Assembly (NCBI GenBank): GCA_018003315.1
Contig: JAGNEJ010000052.1
Span: forward strand, 1 to 34,483
Direction of reading: 5' to 3'
Source: Verrucomicrobiales bacterium
GTDB taxonomy: Bacteria; Verrucomicrobiota; Verrucomicrobiia; Verrucomicrobiales; V1-33
Length of the DNA stretch: 34,483 bases
A model generated the notes under the pieces. It worked only from the letters and a program-made list of their open reading frames with translations. It ran no database searches and was not told the DNA's origin. Of this stretch, positions 1,334 through 10,316 are shown piece after piece. The position numbers and the translations under genes are program-made. Within the stretch, counting starts at the first letter, position 1. Each line of letters opens with the position of its first letter.

Positions 1334-2056
1334 ATGGCATCGCTGTGTTCCAGGCCGGTTCAATATTGTTTTAAAGGTAATTTCTTTTTGCGGGAGAAAG
1401 ATCAATTGCGCTGCTTTTACGAAAATGCCTGGTTTTCCCTCGAAGAAGCGGAACTGGAGCGATTTCTGCCGTCGCTGGGGATGAACGACGAGTGTCTCGA
1501 GCAAATGCCGCGTGAGCTATGGCAATTTTGCGGGAAAGGATTGCGCTTCTGGCAGTATCCCAACCAACTTGCGGGTCTGATTTGCCTCTTGAGGCAGCGC
1601 GAAGCCCGGTCCTACCTGGAAATCGGATCGCGGTGGGGCGGCACGTGTGAGATTTTGGATTCCCTGCTGCGGGCCGGCTGCCCTGAACTCCGTTCGTATG
1701 CCGTGGATGTCATCGAGGAACCGCCGTTGCTCCAGCAATACCGGCAGGGGAGGGCCGTGACTTATGTGCAGGGGAGCAGTGCGGATGTGGAAACCTGGCT
1801 GCGGCTGCCGGAGCAGATCGATGTGGTCTTCATTGATGGGGACCACAGTTGGGAGGGCGTGAAGCGGGATTTCAACATGGCAATGAAACTGTGCCCCCAA
1901 ACCGTGATTTTTCATGACACCGCGAGTGATGCCTGCCCGGATGTGCGCCGGTATTGGAGCCACCTTCGGGAAATCTTTGCGGACACTCACGAATTCCATG
2001 AGCAATACGAGTCCGTGAGAGGTTCGTTCCTTGGCATTGGGGTGGTGCTGTTGTAG
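1334..2056 (+). CDS. Class I SAM-dependent methyltransferase (Methyltransf_24-like), copy 1
   Basis: The 240-residue product has a Rossmann-type SAM-binding motif (YLEIGSRWGG, about residues 94-103), an acidic residue after the second strand (AVDVIEE), and the signature VVFIDGDHSWEG (about 164-175) of small class I methyltransferases often found in polysaccharide or glycan clusters. Substrate is unknown; the adjacent UDP-galactopyranose mutase suggests a surface sugar. The ATG at 1334 is preferred because AGGTGAGG lies just upstream; a GTG at 1325 is also possible. It ends 11 bp before glf copy 1, so the two are likely co-transcribed. From base 1430 on it is nearly identical to the copy at 7856-8482, while the first 32 residues are unrelated, so the two genes have different N-termini. 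It appears intact. Confidence 0.8.
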   Translation: MASLCSRPVQYCFKGNFFLREKDQLRCFYENAWFSLEEAELERFLPSLGMNDECLEQMPRELWQFCGKGLRFWQYPNQLAGLICLLRQREARSYLEIGSRWGGTCEILDSLLRAGCPELRSYAVDVIEEPPLLQQYRQGRAVTYVQGSSADVETWLRLPEQIDVVFIDGDHSWEGVKRDFNMAMKLCPQTVIFHDTASDACPDVRRYWSHLREIFADTHEFHEQYESVRGSFLGIGVVLL

Positions 2057-3068
2057 AACCGTCGAAAATGACTGCACGCATCGTTGGCTCCGGGTTGAGC
2101 GGCGCCACCGCCGCCGTTTTGTTGAAGGCGGGCGGCTTTCAGGTGGAGATGTTCGAAACCAGACCGCAAATCGCAGGGAACTGTTTTGACCGGAGAATCG
2201 GCGGAATCTTGCAGCATGGTTACGGCCCGCATCTCTTCCACACCAACGATGCGGAGGTCTGGCGGTTTCTCAGCCGGTTTACCGAATGGACGAGTTACCG
2301 GCACCGGGTGGTGGCCGACACCGCGGCCGGGCGGATTTCCATTCCCTACAACACTCGGACCAGAACCCAGATCGGACGGGAGTTGACGGATGAGGAAATC
2401 CGGAAGCTGATTTTCGTGGAATACTCGGAAAAACAATGGGGTGTGGCGTGGGAAGCGATGCCGGCGGCGATCATCGGCCGGGTCCCGGCGAGGCGGCACA
2501 ACGACGACGACCGGTATTTCACGGACGAATTCCAGGGCCAGCCGAAGGACGGGTTCACGAAAATGTTTGAGCGGATGCTGGAGGGCATTCCCGTGCATTT
2601 GAGAGTGGGAAAAGATGACTGGCGCAGGCAGGCTGCCAGGGCTGATCTGGTGATCTACACGGGCAAGATCGATGAGCATTTTCACTGCTGCCACGGTCGC
2701 CTGCCGTATCGCAGTCTGCGGTTCGAGCATTTCTGGAGTCCGCAACGGCTGCCCCAGGCGGTGATCAATCAGTGCAACCGGCTGCCCTTCACCCGCATTT
2801 ACGACCACCGGTATTTCAGCGAGAATGAGGCTCCCTCCCTGCCTTCGGAATGGGCACGGAAGATACACCCGCAAACACTTTTGCCAGCATGCGCCGTCTC
2901 GCTGGGGCCATCCGCAGTGAAGGAGGGCGGAACCATCCTCACCCGCGAATACCCGCAGGCCCACGACGGGTCCAATGAGCCGTACTACCCGATGCCCTTC
3001 GGCGAGGGAATGGCGTTGTATCAGAAATACAAAAGGCTCGCCGACGCCGAACCTCGGACCGTTTTTGT
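1430..3068 (+). repeat. Direct duplication of methyltransferase-glf cassette, copy 1 (continues at 4332-4440)
   Basis: Bases 1430-3068 match 7856-9494 at a constant offset of 6,426, so there is no net insertion or deletion over 1.64 kb. After the IS, 4332-4440 matches 9487-9595. Most differences are scattered single bases; the exception is an 84-bp block in glf. Confidence 0.9.
3061..3068. repeat. Left target-site duplication of the ISL3 element
   Basis: GTTTTTGT directly precedes the left inverted repeat. The same 8 bases follow the right inverted repeat at 4332-4339. The uninterrupted copy of glf has a single GTTTTTGT at 9487-9494, confirming the target. Confidence 0.92.
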
Positions 3069-4331
3069 GGCTCTTCCCAGAATTGTGTGGGAATTTTCAC
3101 GGCAAAGAAAGGTCGAGTTTTCCGAGGAGGAAGAGAATGCGGACGCGGTAGTGTGCGAAGTTGCGGAACCCTCGGGTGGCGGATTTGATTGCTTGGATCA
3201 CGCTGTTGAAGCCTTCGGCCAAGGCGTTGCTGATGGGGTGTGCGAACCAGTTGAGCAAGCGTGGCAGGCTGGCTTTGAAACTCTTGCCGAGCTTCTTCAT
3301 CGGCTCCAACCGGCAGCGCTGGGTGCGCCGATACCACTTCGCAAAATAGTCGCCCCCCTGCAGTGCGTCGTCCTGCTCCCAAAATCCGCCAAAGAGTTCT
3401 TTGATTTCCCAAGCCCGTGACGTCTTGAGTGTGAGCCGCGCCAGCGCTTCAAAACCGGTGAGTTTCTCGGAACTCAGATTCAACGGGTTGGTCAGCCACA
3501 GGTATTTCGTTTTGGCCAGGGTGTGATCCCCCTGCGCCAGCAGTTCGGCGCTCAGATGATAGGCATCGTGAACGATCTGGGCCTGCGGCAGCGCTTCTTC
3601 CACCGCGGCCTGATAGGTGGGGCTGCGATCCATCGCCACCGCCGCGATGCGTTGCTGTTGCACCGTCGGCAGGCTTCGAATGGCGGCGACGGCCGCTTCC
3701 TTGGTCGCCCCGCTGGTCACCTCCAGCACCGCCGACCGTCGATGTCGCTCAAGACGGTGGCGTAGCTGTGCCCGCGGCCGAAACTCTTCTCGTCGATCCC
3801 GACATGCGCCATGGGCTTCTCCTCGCGCCGTGCCAGGCCGCGGTGGACGGCGCGTTCGAGGATTTTATGGGCGCTGTCCCAGTGCAGCCGCAGCAGTTGG
3901 CAGGCATCCTCAATGCTGCGGGCGACCAGCAGCACCTCCAGCGCCAGTCGCTCGAAGGCCAGCGTCCACCGACTGTGCGGCGCGGCCCACGGCACGGCTA
4001 CGACCATCGTTTTGCCGCTCGTGGGATTGCGCACCCTGGGAACCTTGGCGACGAGTATCGTCTCGTATTGCCAGAAGTCCAGATGCCGCCAAGTGCGTTC
4101 CTGCCACCCGTGGATGTGCAGCGCTTCGCCGGTGGCGGGATCGGCCCACGTTGTCGCCGCACACTCCACGCACAGCCGCACCGTGCGGGCCGCATGGTCA
4201 ATCTCCAAAGAAGTAACCCGCCAAGGTCCCACCAGGCCCAGCATCTGTTCGAGGTCTTTCGCAGTCATCCTCCAATCTCCTCGAAAAAGCCCGATTCGCA
4301 GACTTTTTCCCACACGAATCCGGGATGAGCC
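3069..4331 (-). mobile_element. ISL3-family insertion sequence, complete ends
   Basis: This 1,263-bp element interrupts glf. Its left end begins GGCTCTTCCCAGAATTGTGT and its right end, read on the other strand, begins GGCTCATCCCGGATTCGTGT. Over 25 bp these inverted repeats match at 21 positions. The GGCTC start is typical of ISL3 elements, and so is the 8-bp target duplication GTTTTTGT found at 3061-3068 and 4332-4339. It carries one transposase gene on the minus strand, in two frames. The intact ends and exact duplication point to a recent insertion. It could still move if a related transposase elsewhere acts in trans. Confidence 0.9.
3097..4268 (-). pseudogene. ISL3-family transposase, frameshifted
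   Basis: The ATG at 4268 has a purine-rich stretch upstream (GAGGAGATTGGAGG). The first frame runs to about 3730 and holds the N-terminal part with a CVEC cysteine pair, a TSGKTMVVAVPWA block, and the first catalytic aspartate in HVGIDEKSFGRG. It then leaves frame in the segment encoding SDIDGRR. The second frame continues from about 3729 to the stop at 3097-3099 and carries the second aspartate (AVAMDRSPTY) and the catalytic glutamate (SNALAEGFNS). The two halves fit end to end if one base is added in the CGGTCGGCGGTG stretch near 3730-3740, so a single-base deletion explains the break. No classical slippery heptamer is visible and programmed shifting is not usual for this family. A sequencing or assembly error cannot be excluded. 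Confidence 0.85.
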
Positions 4332-4339
4332 GTTTTTGT
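4332..4339. repeat. Right target-site duplication of the ISL3 element
   Basis: This is an exact copy of the 8 bases at 3061-3068. Deleting the element plus one copy of this repeat restores the glf reading frame. Confidence 0.92.
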
Positions 4340-4445
4340 CGGCCGCCTGGCCACCTACAGTTATCTGGACATGTGGATGGCGGTGAAGCAAGCGATGGTA
4401 AAGCTGCGGGGTGTGCTGGGGCAAAGGCAAACGGCGGCGCCGTGA

Positions 4446-5090
4446 AATTCCAACGTTTTCAAGCCGCAGGGCGTGATCGCACTTGGAGCGGGTGCCAGAC
4501 AAGGAAGAGCCGGAAATAATCCGCTCAACCGCCGACAGGGCGTTTCCTTCAGCGGTTCAGCAATTTCAAGGCCCGTTCAGTAGTCATTATTAGTCAGTCA
4601 TTTTATTAAGAAATTCCGCGCAGAGTTCCTTCAGATACGCCAGGTCAGCAGGGTCCGCCGTGTTGGACCACCAGTGGTGCTCATCGATGAATTTCCGGTT
4701 CTCCGGCTTCAGCAGGTAAGCCGCCAGCACCGCCACATACCGCCGCCGCCCCGCAGGGCATGTCGAAATCACGCGTTGTCCGGAATACATAAATCAGTGT
4801 TCAGGAATCGAAATCTGTTGGCGTTAAGGTGGTTCGGGGCTGCATTCCAGCAGCGAGGTGCAGCCTGGACAAAATGAATGACTGTGGCGCCGCCCGCCGG
4901 GCGGCTGCACGAAATCCGCCGGGCCGGCGGAACCACTTTCCCTGTGGGCAGTGTCTCCCAAATCTGCTGCGGCACTGCGCGTTCAGTTCGTCTCGTGCTG
5001 GACATCATTCGCAAATTTGAAAATTCCCTCGACAATCATTTTACTAACAGGTAACATCACCCTTGCAATCGGAAAACCGCAATAAAACGG
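4446..5090. other. Gene-poor stretch between glf copy 1 and the Tat-exported gene
   Basis: Apart from the small minus-strand frame at 4590-4790 I see nothing assignable here. A GC-rich inverted stretch occurs near 4895-4930. The last 60 bp before 5091 are AT-rich and probably hold the promoter of the three-gene run that follows, but I cannot point to convincing -35/-10 boxes. Confidence 0.4.
4590..4790 (-). CDS. Small hypothetical protein or gene fragment, 66 aa
   Basis: The frame starts at an ATG at 4790, with an in-frame stop two codons upstream, and ends at 4590. The product is not low-complexity: it has a hydrophobic YVAVLAAYLL segment, an acidic and aromatic centre (DEHHWWSNTADP), and a helical end (LKELCAEFLNK). 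I do not recognise it. It may be a real small gene or the remaining C-terminus of a larger one cut away during the rearrangements around glf. No ribosome-binding site is evident. Confidence 0.3.
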   Translation of the reverse strand: MYSGQRVISTCPAGRRRYVAVLAAYLLKPENRKFIDEHHWWSNTADPADLAYLKELCAEFLNKMTD

Positions 5091-6239
5091 ATGGACAAAA
5101 AAACAATAATTTCCATAAACAAAGGCGGTGGCCAGCTTGGCGAAAAGAATCAGCCTCTGGCGGCGGCTTGGAAGGGGGATCCAATTTCAAGGCGACGGTT
5201 TTTGAAACGAACCGGTGGGTTCATTGGGTCGACCGTCATTGTCCTGCATGGGCTTAAACTGAACAGTAACGCCAGCGAATCTACTCCGGGTTCCAGCGTT
5301 CCTCCTGTTCAGCACATTTTGGGTCTCAACAAGGACGATCCAGAGAACCCAATTACACTCAATCCGATTTTAGTCGTTGACCTGGGAGAAGACGCGTCTC
5401 TGGCGGTTTGCGCGTGGGAATCTCGGGAAATTGGTCCATCTGGTTACCTCGTGGAAATCGAGCATGTTGAAGCAGTTGGTACCGTGTTGACTGTCCAATT
5501 CCGTGCAACCGGGCCGTCCAATTCTCCCCAGCAATCCAAATCAATTCTCAAGATATCTCTCAATGCAAAGGGGTGGACTTTCGATGTGAAGGTCGAAAAA
5601 CCGCATCATATCATGTTTACGCCGGATCCTAAGACAACCACTGTTCAGAACGTTCCTTCGATCCGAGGCTTGAGCCTTCATCCGACGAATTGGTTTAACT
5701 GGCAACCTCGCAGTTCCTTGGTGCGCCCAAAACTTCCATCCACTCAGGGAACTGGTTATTACCATGCAGGATGGTCTATTGATATACCGATCCCAGTGTA
5801 TAACCAATTTGGGGAGCTTCTGTCTGTGGGGTGGAACGGCTCCTGGGTGTCGGAGAAGATTCTGAAAATTGGAAGCGATGACCAGGAGATGCAATACGTA
5901 CAAATCGCCTTCATGAATGGAGACGGAACATATACAGACCCGGTATCGTTCGGCGAAGATATTCCAAATCAATCGTTCCTCGTCGGTCAGGATCGTGTCA
6001 AAGGGGAGAGGTGGCTCAACAATCAAAATCCTGGAGATGGCAGTGCCATACCTGCCAGTCAACATCCAGCATTATTTCAGGAGGGCAAACTGACACAAGA
6101 AACCCCAGGAAACATACAACTCGCAATCCGTGTGGGTGGGTGGGATATTTCTCCAGCCTTTACAAGGGTTAGTTCCAAAGTTTCTGGAACCGCCGGAAGC
6201 AATCTCGGCAAATTTGAAGTGGTAGATGATGCACCGTGA
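5091..6239 (+). CDS. Tat-exported hypothetical protein, 382 aa
   Basis: The N-terminus carries SRRRFLK at residues 33-39, an exact match to the twin-arginine consensus, followed by a hydrophobic stretch (GGFIGSTVIVLHG). The product is therefore expected to be exported folded by the Tat system. The mature part is probably beta-rich, with many Gly, Asn, Pro and Trp residues, and shows a run of aromatic blocks such as HPTNWFNWQPR. I do not recognise a family. Tat export often goes with a cofactor or pre-folded partner, but no cofactor motif is visible. Its stop overlaps the GTG start of the next gene (GTGA), so the two are translationally coupled. The composition is AT-richer than the flanking duplicated cassettes, which hints at a different origin. 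Confidence 0.75.
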   Translation: MDKKTIISINKGGGQLGEKNQPLAAAWKGDPISRRRFLKRTGGFIGSTVIVLHGLKLNSNASESTPGSSVPPVQHILGLNKDDPENPITLNPILVVDLGEDASLAVCAWESREIGPSGYLVEIEHVEAVGTVLTVQFRATGPSNSPQQSKSILKISLNAKGWTFDVKVEKPHHIMFTPDPKTTTVQNVPSIRGLSLHPTNWFNWQPRSSLVRPKLPSTQGTGYYHAGWSIDIPIPVYNQFGELLSVGWNGSWVSEKILKIGSDDQEMQYVQIAFMNGDGTYTDPVSFGEDIPNQSFLVGQDRVKGERWLNNQNPGDGSAIPASQHPALFQEGKLTQETPGNIQLAIRVGGWDISPAFTRVSSKVSGTAGSNLGKFEVVDDAP

Positions 6240-6994
6240 ACGTTCATCCGGCACTTCTGTTTAGTTTGTTTGCGGGAGCATTATCCGGCTGGTGCGCAGC
6301 TGGTTATTATCAAAATAGGGATCGAATAGACGCCAGCCAAGAATCGGCACTTTCTCCAAAGCAATTCAACAATTTGATCGAGCATACCCAACGTGGGATA
6401 GAGCAACTACACCTAGAAGATGTCGATCAATCACTTGTTCCATTAGAACCGGGTGATGAAACGATTGCCACTAGAATCACCGGCGCCTTGTTGTTCGCTC
6501 CGGGAGAAGCCAAAGTCGACGTCAGAATATTTGAGACGTTTCGGTTGCCGGATGAAATCATTTCCGATTTCATAGATGCCTCAGAAATGCTCCTTAGGGA
6601 CATCCGGTCTTATGAATTAAAGAGCATTCGTTTGGAAGTTCAAAATCAAGACGAAATATTGATTGTTCCTGGCTTCAGCAATGAAGAAGCAAACCAATTT
6701 CTCGGGAGAGCATGCTCGAATTTGAGTTCAAAAATAGAATCTGCGGCGCGCCTTTTTACAGCGATGGCATTCGAATCTTTCCCATTATTGCAAGGCAGAA
6801 ACTGCGAATTAGCGATTATCTGCTCTGGTGGTAGTGACGAACACTACCTAGTCGAAGAGCGATACACGCTGAAGGGGAAGAATGATTTGGTGCGCTCCAT
6901 AGGAGTGCCCACTCGAACTAGACCCCAACTGTGGGAGTCCGCCAGGTGGTCTCATTTGGCATCGCTAGATTTTGCTCATCTCCGGAAAAAATAG
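6236..6994 (+). CDS. Membrane-anchored or exported hypothetical protein, 252 aa
   Basis: It starts at a GTG overlapping the stop of the upstream Tat-exported gene by 4 bases. A hydrophobic segment (about residues 7-24, LFSLFAGALSGWCAAGYY) indicates a signal peptide or N-terminal anchor. The remaining 220 residues are mixed, with an acidic N-terminal half. No catalytic motif or known domain is recognisable. The tight overlap and short spacing to the next gene (8 bp) place it in a three-gene operon of exported proteins that probably work together. Confidence 0.65.
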   Translation: MNVHPALLFSLFAGALSGWCAAGYYQNRDRIDASQESALSPKQFNNLIEHTQRGIEQLHLEDVDQSLVPLEPGDETIATRITGALLFAPGEAKVDVRIFETFRLPDEIISDFIDASEMLLRDIRSYELKSIRLEVQNQDEILIVPGFSNEEANQFLGRACSNLSSKIESAARLFTAMAFESFPLLQGRNCELAIICSGGSDEHYLVEERYTLKGKNDLVRSIGVPTRTRPQLWESARWSHLASLDFAHLRKK

Positions 6995-7002
6995 GTAATT
7001 AA

Positions 7003-7791
7003 ATGAAATGGAACCGGCTACATATTTTCGCTACATTTGCAGTTTCTTGCGGAGTAGTGTTTTTTGGAAGGCTTTTGTGCGCACCCAGCGCCGATGGTTT
7101 ACGCCATGATCCGGAAAATGTGCAGGTGTCTCGTGGGTTAAAGGTGCCTTTGCATCCAAATAGCAGGGCCGCACCAACGGCGAAACCGCTCGTCGCGCTG
7201 GATTTGGCAGGATTCGCTCTGAAGGATGAGTTTGTTTTATTTGGTCCTTGGACGACAGCCATGAGGTTTAATTTGCTTAAGGAGCTGAATGTTGCCCCGG
7301 AACTTATTGCCCCGACCGCAACAGTTATCAAGAAATGCAGGACTTCCTTAGGACGGTCATTCATGCATCAAGTAAAATCGCACGAGCCCCTAAAAGCTGG
7401 CGTTTCATACCATCTGCTGCCTCTTCCATCTGATAAAATTGCCGCTGAATGCAGCCTCATCGTTACGAATGCACCCCATGGGCTGTCGAGTTTTCAAAAG
7501 CGCATTCTTCAGTTCGAGTTGCTACGGTCCTCAATTGACTCCTTTTGCATTGATACGAAAATTCAGTTCTTTTTACCGCAAATGTCACTACTTTCGCCTA
7601 TCCCCGGTGCATTTTTGGTGTTGTCTGAGGGCCATAACGTGCTTGAAGATACAAGTTTCCGGAATGCAAATGAGTTTGCATCTAAAAAAGAGACTCTATT
7701 CGAATCATTAGATATTTCAATCAAATCTTTAGAAAATGCACGGCTATTGAATGATCCGCGGTTTCATATTTCTACAGATGTGCGCTTTTAA
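7003..7791 (+). CDS. Exported hypothetical protein, 262 aa
   Basis: The N-terminus (MKWNRLHIFATFAVSCGVVF) looks like a signal peptide or anchor, with a possible cleavage after CAPSA near residue 30. The rest has no recognisable domain. It lies 8 bp after the upstream exported-protein gene and is likely third in that operon. Its 3' end overlaps the start of methyltransferase copy 2, depending on the start chosen there, so the duplicated cassette is joined directly to this operon. The base composition is noticeably AT-rich, and the shift towards higher GC occurs near 7860, where the duplicated cassette begins. Confidence 0.6.
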   Translation: MKWNRLHIFATFAVSCGVVFFGRLLCAPSADGLRHDPENVQVSRGLKVPLHPNSRAAPTAKPLVALDLAGFALKDEFVLFGPWTTAMRFNLLKELNVAPELIAPTATVIKKCRTSLGRSFMHQVKSHEPLKAGVSYHLLPLPSDKIAAECSLIVTNAPHGLSSFQKRILQFELLRSSIDSFCIDTKIQFFLPQMSLLSPIPGAFLVLSEGHNVLEDTSFRNANEFASKKETLFESLDISIKSLENARLLNDPRFHISTDVRF

Positions 7792-8482
7792 CGACAATGA
7801 GCCTTCACCCGCAATTGAAAAGCAATCGAGCGTTGGACGCTTTACTGAAGGTGATTGGTGTTCCCTCGAAGAATCCGAGCTGGAGAAATTCCTTCCGTCG
7901 CTGGGGATGAACGACGAGTGTCTCGAGCAAATGCCGCGTGAGCTATGGCAATTCTGCCGCAAAGGCTTGCGATTCTGGCAGTATCCCAACCAACTCGCGG
8001 GTCTCATCTGTCTTTTGCGGCAGCGCGGAGCCCGCTCCTACCTGGAAATTGGCTCGCGGTGGGGCGGCACGTTTGTAATTTTGGAATCCCTGCTGCGGGC
8101 CGGCTGCCCTGAACTCCATTCGCATGCCGTGGATGTCATCGACGAACCACTGTTGGTCCAGCAATACCGGCAGGGGCGGGACGTGACCTATGTGCAGGGG
8201 AGCAGTGCGGATGTGGAAACGTGGCTGCGTTTGCCGGAGCAGATCGACGTGGTCTTCATTGATGGGGACCACAGTTGGGAGGGCGTGAAGCGGGATTTCA
8301 ACATGGCGATGAAACTGTGCCCCCACACCGTGATTTTTCATGACACGGCGAGTGATACCTGCCCGGATGTGCGCCGGTATTGGAGCCACCTTCAGGAAAT
8401 CTTTGCGGACACACACGAATTCCATGAGCAATACGAGTCCGTGAGAGGTTCGTTCCTGGGCATTGGGGTGGTGCTGTTGTAG
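7781..8482 (+). CDS. Class I SAM-dependent methyltransferase, copy 2
   Basis: This is a near-identical paralogue of the protein at 1334-2056 from the FLPSLGMNDECLEQM block onward. It keeps the SAM-binding YLEIGSRWGGT and the VVFIDGDHSWEG signature, so it should be functional. I prefer the ATG at 7781, which overlaps the upstream gene by 11 bases; an ATG at 7751 in the same frame would overlap it by 41. Neither has a clear ribosome-binding site. The first 25 or so residues differ from copy 1, as the duplication breakpoint lies inside the gene. It ends 11 bp before glf copy 2, the same spacing as in copy 1. The substrate is probably a sugar of a surface glycan, by context only. Confidence 0.8.
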   Translation, partial: CAFNDNEPSPAIEKQSSVGRFTEGDWCSLEESELEKFLPSLGMNDECLEQMPRELWQFCRKGLRFWQYPNQLAGLICLLRQRGARSYLEIGSRWGGTFVILESLLRAGCPELHSHAVDVIDEPLLVQQYRQGRDVTYVQGSSADVETWLRLPEQIDVVFIDGDHSWEGVKRDFNMAMKLCPHTVIFHDTASDTCPDVRRYWSHLQEIFADTHEFHEQYESVRGSFLGIGVVLL

Positions 8483-9593
8483 ACCCTTCGAAAATGACCG
8501 CACTCATCGTTGGCTCCGGGTTGAGCGGCGCCACCGCAGCCGTATTGCTGAAGGCGGGCGGCTTTCAGGTGGAGATATTCGAAACCAGGCCGCAAATCGC
8601 AGGGAACTGTTTTGACCGGAGAATCGGGGGAACCTTGCAGCACTGTTACGGTCCGCATCTCTTCCACACCAACGATGCGGAGGTCTGGCGGTTTCTCAGT
8701 CGGTTCACGGAGTGGACGGGTTACCGGCACCGGGTGGTGGCTGACACCGCGGCCGGGCGGATTTCCATTCCCTACAACACCAGGACCAGAACCCAGGTCG
8801 GACGGGAGTTGACGGATGAGGAAATCCGGAAGCTGATTTTTGTGGAGTATTCCCAAAAGCAATGGGGTGTGGCGTGGGAAGCGATGCCGGCGGCGATCAT
8901 CGGCCGGGTCCCGGCGAGGCGGCACAACGACGACGACCGGTATTTCACGGACGAATTCCAGGGCCAGCCGAAGGACGGGTTCACGAAAATGTTTGAGCGG
9001 ATGCTGGAGGGCATTCCCGTGCATTTTGGAGTCGGGAAAGACGAATGGCGCAAGCAGGCAGCCAGGGCGGCTCTGGTGATCTACACGGGCAAGATCGATG
9101 AGCATTTTCACTGCTGCCACGGTCGCCTGCCGTATCGCAGTCTGCGGTTCGAGCATTTCTGGAGCCCGCAGCGACTGCCCCATGCGGTGATCAACCAGTG
9201 CAACCGACTGCCATTCACCCGGGTTTACGACCACCGGTATTTCAGCGAGAATGAGGCTCCCTCCCTGCCTGCTGAACCGGCGAGGATGGTCCCGGAAGCT
9301 GCCCTGCTTCCCGAGGGAGCCTTGGCGCTTGGGCAAGCGCCAACCGGGACGCCCGGAACCATCCTCACCCGCGAATACCCGCAGGCCCACGACGGGTCCA
9401 ATGAGCCGTACTACCCGATGCCCTTCGGCGAGGGAATGGCGTTGTATCAGAAATAGAAAAGGCTCGCCGACGCCGAACCTCGGACCGTTTTTGTCGGCCG
9501 TCTGGCCACTTACAGCTATCTGGACATGTGGATGGCGATGAAGCAAGCGATGGTAAAGCTGCGGGGTGTGCTGGGGCAAAGGCAAACGGCGAC
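7856..9593 (+). repeat. Direct duplication of methyltransferase-glf cassette, copy 2
   Basis: This is the second copy of the cassette at 1430-4440, in the same orientation. Similarity starts inside the methyltransferase gene near codon 26 of its product and ends in the last codons of glf, so the duplicated unit does not coincide with gene boundaries. Confidence 0.9.
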
Positions 9594-9663
9594 GCCGAGG
9601 AGTTCCGCAATGTTTTCGCGGGCGGATTCGACGACGGACTTCAGCCGCGATCCGAAGCGGTAG
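8494..9663 (+). pseudogene. glf: UDP-galactopyranose mutase, copy 2, with internal stop codon
   Basis: The frame matches copy 1 through the FAD-binding GSGLSG motif, the RYFTDEFQG block and EPYYPMPFGEG. At 9454-9456 the codon TAC (Tyr) of copy 1 (3028-3030) is TAG here. The reading frame beyond the stop remains open and homologous (KRLADAEPRTVFVGRLATY and the rest of the C-terminal block), then runs past the duplication end near 9593 into unrelated sequence and stops at 9661-9663. A protein ending at 9453 would be 320 residues and would lack the C-terminal block with the conserved arginine, so it is expected to be inactive. The nonsense change could be a sequencing error; if so, this would be the only complete glf here, with a new C-terminus. 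Confidence 0.8.
9322..9343. repeat. Perfect hairpin inside glf copy 2
   Basis: A 9-bp stem TTGGCGCTT / AAGCGCCAA encloses a 4-base loop. It lies in an 84-bp block where the two glf copies do not match although their flanks are nearly identical. Copy 1 has no such hairpin at the matching place. Confidence 0.7.
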
Positions 9664-9708
9664 CTGGACGAGGGATTGCCCCAGTCATCGCCGATCAGGT
9701 CGGCTTTG
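9594..9708 (-). pseudogene. Cysteine desulfurase (NifS/IscS-like) N-terminal scrap
   Basis: On the minus strand, about 38 codons read DDWGNPSSSYRFGSR and then KSVVESARENIAELLG. This closely follows the N-terminal region of class V cysteine desulfurases (the 'FGNPSS-H-FG' block followed by an AR--IA-LLGA helix). No start codon, PLP lysine or catalytic loop is present, and it is cut off exactly where the duplicated glf ends, so it is a fragment trapped at a rearrangement junction. The identification rests on this one block. Confidence 0.55.
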
Positions 9709-10028
9709 ATTCGCCCTGCCGGGCTCACCCTGCGGGCTGCGCTGTGGCGCAGTCTGTCTCGCTCCCGTTCGGCTCATCTGCCGCCAGGGGTGACGGTGGT
9801 GCCGCTGCCGCCCTGTTGCCTGCTTTCTCAAAGGAAAAGAGTGGCAGGCTGTCTCCGCTTCGCTCCGGCTGCCCGGAACTCAATCCTGAGGAGCATGTGG
9901 GCCAGTTGCTGCGCACGGCAACAGCCAACCGGGTCTTTCCCAGCCTGCCGGCAATGGAGCAGGATATCGAAAGTAACCGTCTCACCAAGACATCTATCGT
10001 CGGGCCGGGGTCTGGGTGAGGTTCCGGC
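9664..10028 (+). pseudogene. Degraded transposon region with IS630-type remnant
   Basis: A plus-strand frame around 9867-9980 reads CPELNPEEHVGQ followed by ANRVFPSLPAMEQDIES. This matches the end of IS630/Tc1-type DDE transposases, where a conserved 'PELNP-E--W' segment carries the last catalytic glutamate, but the tryptophan and upstream catalytic residues are missing. The rest of the 365 bp is GC-rich with no assignable gene. Confidence 0.4.
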
Positions 10029-10316
10029 ATGAGGAAGCGAATCCCGAAGGAGTGGCGTCGTCTGGTGGCCGAGTTCGAGCGCGGCTGCGAGAGTCGGCGT
10101 GCGTTCTGTGAGCGACGGGCGCTTGCCCTGAGCACGCTGGACTACTGGAGGCGAAGGAGCCGGGCGGAGGCTGACGGGCGGTTGGTCGAGGTCGATCTTG
10201 ACCCGGGTGGTGCGTTGGCCGGTGGGGTGGTTGCCCCGGTGGTGATCACCTGGCCCAACGGGGTAAGGGTGGAACTTGTGCGGCGACAATATAAACTGAG
10301 CACCGACGACAATTAA
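10029..10316 (+). pseudogene. IS66-type accessory protein TnpA, truncated
   Basis: The 95-residue frame begins MRKRIPKEWRRLVAEFERG and has the helix-turn-helix segment SRRAFCERRALALSTLDYW followed by basic residues. It then has LVEVDL and WPNGVRVEL. This is the layout of the small TnpA (OrfA) protein of IS66-family elements, which normally ends shortly after an 'LPNG-R' strand. Here the last 11 residues derive from a repeated 33-bp motif (10282-10313) also seen at 24253-24284, so the natural C-terminus seems replaced. No TnpB or TnpC follows; murC starts 84 bp downstream. Confidence 0.6.
10282..10313. repeat. 33-bp motif, copy A (possible IS21-like end)
   Basis: The sequence GGCGACAATATAAACTGAGC and the following ACCGACGACA recur, with a few changes, at 24253-24284. 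Read on the minus strand it starts TGTCGTCGGTGCTCAG. A TG start and internal AATTGTCGC-type repeats recall IS21-family termini, but that is only a suggestion. Confidence 0.5.

Follow-up and report, generated by a model that had tools for sequence, protein, structure and literature searches.

Two paralogous methyltransferase-glf cassettes with separately broken mutase genes on one contig of a Verrucomicrobiales bacterium

The window, which is the whole stretch of DNA that was analysed, represents an entire contig (C127; 34,483 bp). The draft genome to which it belongs measures 5.09 Mb in 155 contigs and is 96% complete with 2.6% contamination. A pair of genes, encoding a Methyltransf_24 methyltransferase and a UDP-galactopyranose-mutase-like protein (glf), is found twice within it, at 1413-3068 and 7839-9494, as direct repeats. 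A position-by-position comparison at fixed offset places them exactly 6,426 bp apart throughout, with no net indel, confirming the gap-free repetition of this gene pair described in the initial annotation, and the list of open reading frames agrees that both methyltransferases are open. The features of the region are listed below.

1325-2056, + strand: methyltransferase copy 1, 243 aa, homologous to copy 2 from around 1413; PF13578 (Methyltransf_24)
2068-3068, + strand: glf-like copy 1, cut by the insertion sequence (IS) after codon 333, with the ORF continuing to 3420 within the IS; PF03275 and PF13450
2845-2927, + strand: extra loop of glf copy 1, with its counterpart in copy 2 at 9271-9353
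3061-3068, + strand: left target duplication, GTTTTTGT, 8 bp, read from the sequence
3069-4331, strand not assigned: ISL3-family element with a decayed transposase in two - strand frames, 3097-3729 and 3717 to around 4330
4332-4339, + strand: right target duplication, GTTTTTGT, 8 bp, read from the sequence
4332-4445, + strand: C-terminal remainder of glf copy 1, starting VFVGRLATYSYLDM, cut off by the IS; placed by alignment, 106/111 identical to copy 2
5091-7791, + strand: three AT-rich genes of unassigned family between the cassettes, GC3 44-48%
7751-8482, + strand: methyltransferase copy 2, 243 aa, from the ORF list and a Pfam match
8494-9456, + strand: glf-like copy 2, stopped by TAG at 9454-9456
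9322-9343, + strand: perfect 22-base palindrome, TTGGCGCTTG-GG-CAAGCGCCAA, in the loop of glf copy 2; one genomic site
9457-9663, + strand: unread in-frame tail of glf copy 2, starting KRLADAEPRTVFVGRLATYSYLDM; placed by alignment, frame open, tail conserved

Homology between the cassettes starts at around 1413. Over 1470-3068, with the loop at 2845-2927 left out, the copies show 88 differences in 1,516 bp, and the similarity continues past the IS, where 4332-4442 and 9487-9597 differ at 5 of 111 positions. Only these two DNA copies of the cassette were found genome-wide. The GC3 of the cassettes is host-like (67-76%) and that of murC-murB is 73%, with values of 44-50% in the genes upstream of each cassette. 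These AT-rich genes, which belong to no known family, lie directly upstream of the cassettes at 205-1227 and 5091-7791. A twin-arginine-like start marks the first gene of the latter interval, for which the relatives yielded no homologue. A synteny comparison showed no conserved order of genes around murC-murB in relatives. Transposase-like remnants, all below Pfam cut-offs, occur at 9600-10316 and 1-190; a PELNPEEH-like stretch near 9880 resembles IS630, a small ORF at 10029 resembles an accessory gene of IS66, and a weak match to DDE_Tnp_IS66 (E 0.078) lies at the left end of the contig. Literature searches returned no report of this case.

Glf copy 1 is split by an ISL3-family element of 1,263 bp, as had been proposed, and both the target duplication and the transposase domains bear this out. 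The GTTTTTGT repeats that flank the element match at 8/8 positions, and copy 2 has a single GTTTTTGT at the corresponding position. The termini of the element are imperfect inverted repeats (GGCTCTTCCC / GGCTCATCCC), and its transposase domains match DDE_Tnp_ISL3, Zn_ribbon_ISL3, and HTH_Tnp_ISL3 (PF01610, PF14690, and PF13542, respectively). In these characters, in the 8-bp length of the target duplication, and in the existence of scattered short derivatives, it resembles other ISL3-family insertion sequences and can be placed among them; it differs in being internally deleted and frameshifted, with the transposase found in two frames instead of one intact frame. It is around 46 bp shorter than its nearest full-length relative, a near-full-length element on contig C45 with a transposase of 405 aa. 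The genome contains more than 40 matches to the element, scattered and mostly short derivatives, so that one ISL3 insertion into a glf gene is unremarkable here. Short, MITE-like derivatives that consist mainly of both element ends are found on contigs C13, C25, C55, C70, C71, C82, C85, C105, C120, and C142. Because the frame of glf copy 1 reads on into the IS, producing an ORF of 450 aa, the gene appears full-length to an ORF caller and could be called intact by automatic annotation.

In glf copy 2, the tyrosine codon TAC found in copy 1 (3028-3030) is changed in frame to TAG at 9454-9456, in keeping with the claim that this second gene is ended by a nonsense codon. Both methyltransferase genes also end in TAG, and the codon is thus a genuine stop in this organism. 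Neither lesion occurs in the other copy; the two losses are therefore independent, as the initial annotation had held. Both remove the conserved C-terminal GRLATYSYLDM segment, whose coding sequence survives in each copy beyond the IS or the stop, with the result that neither encoded protein contains the GRLxxYxYxxM segment found in all 11 of the other glf proteins aligned. The C-terminal segment of the mutase has a known role in the binding of flavin and substrate. Judged by the absence of the conserved GRLxxYxYLDM segment, the truncated proteins are probably inactive.

Between copy 1 and copy 2, dS is 0.22 and 0.20, and dN/dS is 0.14 and 0.12, for the methyltransferase and the pre-loop part of glf, respectively. 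With a dS of about 0.2, the cassettes are not recent duplicates, and on these ratios both the methyltransferase and glf evolved under purifying selection. The low dN/dS suggests that the glf copies were functional for most of their separate history and that the lesions came late, the ratio being an average over both lineages that dates the lesions only imprecisely. None of the 14 amino-acid differences in the pre-loop region falls on a column that is invariant in the 11 other glf proteins. The divergence is distributed as a mosaic: the 167 bases of 2434-2600 are without differences, the 141 bases of 2928-3068 harbor the nonsense change only, and 2845-2927 is very different, the two 60-base bins covering it having 30 and 14 mismatches. 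The identical run at 2434-2600 gives a longest-run P of 0.002, and the second and third runs are also unusual, whereas the third-position test of the longest run is weaker (P 0.03). Such patchy identity would fit local gene conversion, of which it is at most suggestive.

As the genome is a draft with some contamination, an artefact of sequencing, assembly, or strain mixture could account for the nonsense codon and perhaps also for the mosaic similarity, in which case only the IS-split copy is truly broken. The position of the stop, as the sole difference in a stretch otherwise identical between the copies, would be compatible with such an origin. We nevertheless consider it unlikely, given that the nonsense difference is an ordinary single-base change and that the copies have distinct flanks and 88 or more differences distributed along them. 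The same differences, together with the different flanks within one contig, disfavour the assembly collapse that the initial annotation had raised. No sign was found of the phase variation that it also suggested; neither the decayed IS nor the single-base change resembles a switch.

It might also be proposed that the truncated proteins retain a function, for example as a shortened flavoprotein that partners the methyltransferase, and that the two breaks reflect tolerance or a changed role. Consistent with this, 39 bp separate the breakpoints when the copies are put in register (3030 and 3069), and dN/dS is low up to the break. However, two random breaks this close in a gene of around 1.1 kb have, by our own estimate, a chance of roughly 7%, and the missing tail is conserved throughout the other glf proteins. 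Moreover, the sequences beyond the breaks have stayed conserved and almost the same in both copies, which points to a recent loss and not to a truncation of long standing, and retained function is accordingly judged extremely improbable.

The same genome contains a third glf, on contig C71, that is uninterrupted, encodes 370 aa with all mutase domains, and scores 375 bits against TIGR00031 (cut-off 304). It shares 75% identity with the glf of the one genome from the same genus that was compared, and around 41% with the cassette mutases. The murC-murB genes on the window contig show 75% identity to the same genome, and this equal identity, together with the presence of ISL3 derivatives on both contigs, makes it very probable that C71 and C127 belong to one genome or lineage. 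The C71 glf overlaps the end of an unassigned 248-aa gene, a possible partner glycosyltransferase, by 22 bp (L006:9349-11186). A GlfT2-type galactofuranosyl transferase (PF19320), the only transferase family searched for, was not found.

An intact glf elsewhere is one of the findings that the initial annotation had named as evidence against its reading of the locus. Its proposal of selection against galactofuranose synthesis is not supported, given an intact gene that is common to the same-genus relative. We favour instead, with a probability of roughly 0.8, a reading in which two redundant paralogues, on a contig rich in mobile elements, decayed late and independently of each other. A pair of diverged, paralogous operons, each composed of a class-I SAM methyltransferase (Methyltransf_24, CmcI-like) and then an atypical UDP-galactopyranose-mutase-like flavoprotein, would have been kept functional for a long time. 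Each mutase gene would then have lost its C-terminal end recently and separately, in one case through insertion of a non-autonomous ISL3 element and in the other through a point nonsense mutation, with the methyltransferase left untouched by the lesion because it is upstream in each operon. Redundancy of the product would explain why the loss was tolerated, as another contig has a canonical, intact glf. We infer both this timing and redundancy as its reason; functional redundancy is only putative, since the C71 mutase is so distant in sequence and the cassette mutases are missing 29 residues and fall under the mutase cut-off. The relaxed need that had been offered as an alternative to selection is plausible in the weak sense of redundancy, but the low dN/dS of both glf copies means that any relaxation was only recent.

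Convergent, selected loss would posit that what the cassette mutases made, whether galactofuranose or some related furanose, turned harmful, for instance by serving phages as a receptor or by acting as a surface antigen. In its favour, the paralogues carry two independent disabling lesions while their upstream genes are still open. Yet an intact canonical glf persists in the genome and in the genus, one insertion is unremarkable in so ISL3-rich a genome, and two events are too few for rejecting chance, and we regard such selection as very unlikely. Decay of redundant copies, by comparison, matches paralogous pseudogenes in operons under IS load, where late independent lesions in redundant copies are likewise seen, and no substantive difference from such cases is apparent. 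The locus mainly illustrates a need for caution, in that two broken paralogues in one window mimic convergent loss while an intact mutase remains elsewhere in the genome, and the substitution patterns suggest that maintenance of both copies ended only recently.

The one lead worth keeping lies in the cassette mutases, for their unusual form, and in the methyltransferase that accompanies them. Both mutase copies match PF03275 (GLF), scoring 159 and 138.8 bits (cut-off 26.3). Against the TIGR00031 equivalog model, copy 2 up to its stop reaches 206.8 bits, below the cut-off of 303.75, although truncation alone lowers this score. In common with UDP-galactopyranose mutase (Glf; TIGR00031, PF03275; solved structures 3hdq, 1i8t, and 2bi7), the cassette proteins have the FAD-binding Rossmann start, KQWG, R-x-P-x-R, YRSLRFE, FTR, and EPYYP, with GRLATYSYLDM behind the breaks. 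They differ, apart from the low truncated score (207 versus 304 bits), in that both lack around 29 residues of domain 2 that are present in nearly all others aligned, and in that both carry an extra loop of around 30 residues. Part of this domain 2 stretch is also absent from the glf of locus L037. The loop is of equal length in both copies, but its DNA is highly different, far above the flanks. The cassette proteins are thus only putative UDP-galactopyranose mutases, and a role of theirs in galactofuranose synthesis is likewise putative.

The methyltransferases belong to Methyltransf_24 (PF13578), scoring 35.1 bits (copy 1) and 37.2 bits against a cut-off of 26.3. Searches of the relatives, of plasmids, and of 388 genomes from the phylum found no close match, and the gene is absent from same-family relatives. 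Scans of genome contigs returned distant relatives only, the best in SAR11 single cells. Methyltransf_24/CmcI-like SAM methyltransferases of glycan clusters, from Verrucomicrobia bacterium IMCC26134 and SAR11 single cells, share the IDVVFIDGDHSWEG motif, and those of SAR11 also share a conserved N-terminal segment. Their neighbours are glycosyltransferases, but their identity is only 34-37% and none has an adjacent glf except at L091, the one of 80 loci from these scans that has a glf nearby, around 1.8 kb downstream. The cassette mutases, with their missing domain 2 stretch and fast-changing extra loop, might form a separate Glf branch with a dedicated methyltransferase, making a novel and perhaps methylated furanose, so that the double loss would reflect a change of that surface sugar and not of ordinary galactofuranose; we consider this unlikely.

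Two further candidates were set aside. The palindrome in the loop of copy 2 was considered as a mobile element, but it has a single genomic site even at 3 mismatches and its fold is unremarkable (z -1.28). The short cassette glf is also not a known plasmid form; the matches on alpha-proteobacterial plasmids are glycosyltransferase-Glf fusions that carry the region missing here, and their equal alignment length is coincidental. Plasmids of Rhizobium and Sphingobium encode proteins of around 745 aa in which a glycosyltransferase-like domain is followed by a fused Glf (L051:4888-7125 and L052:4903-7149).
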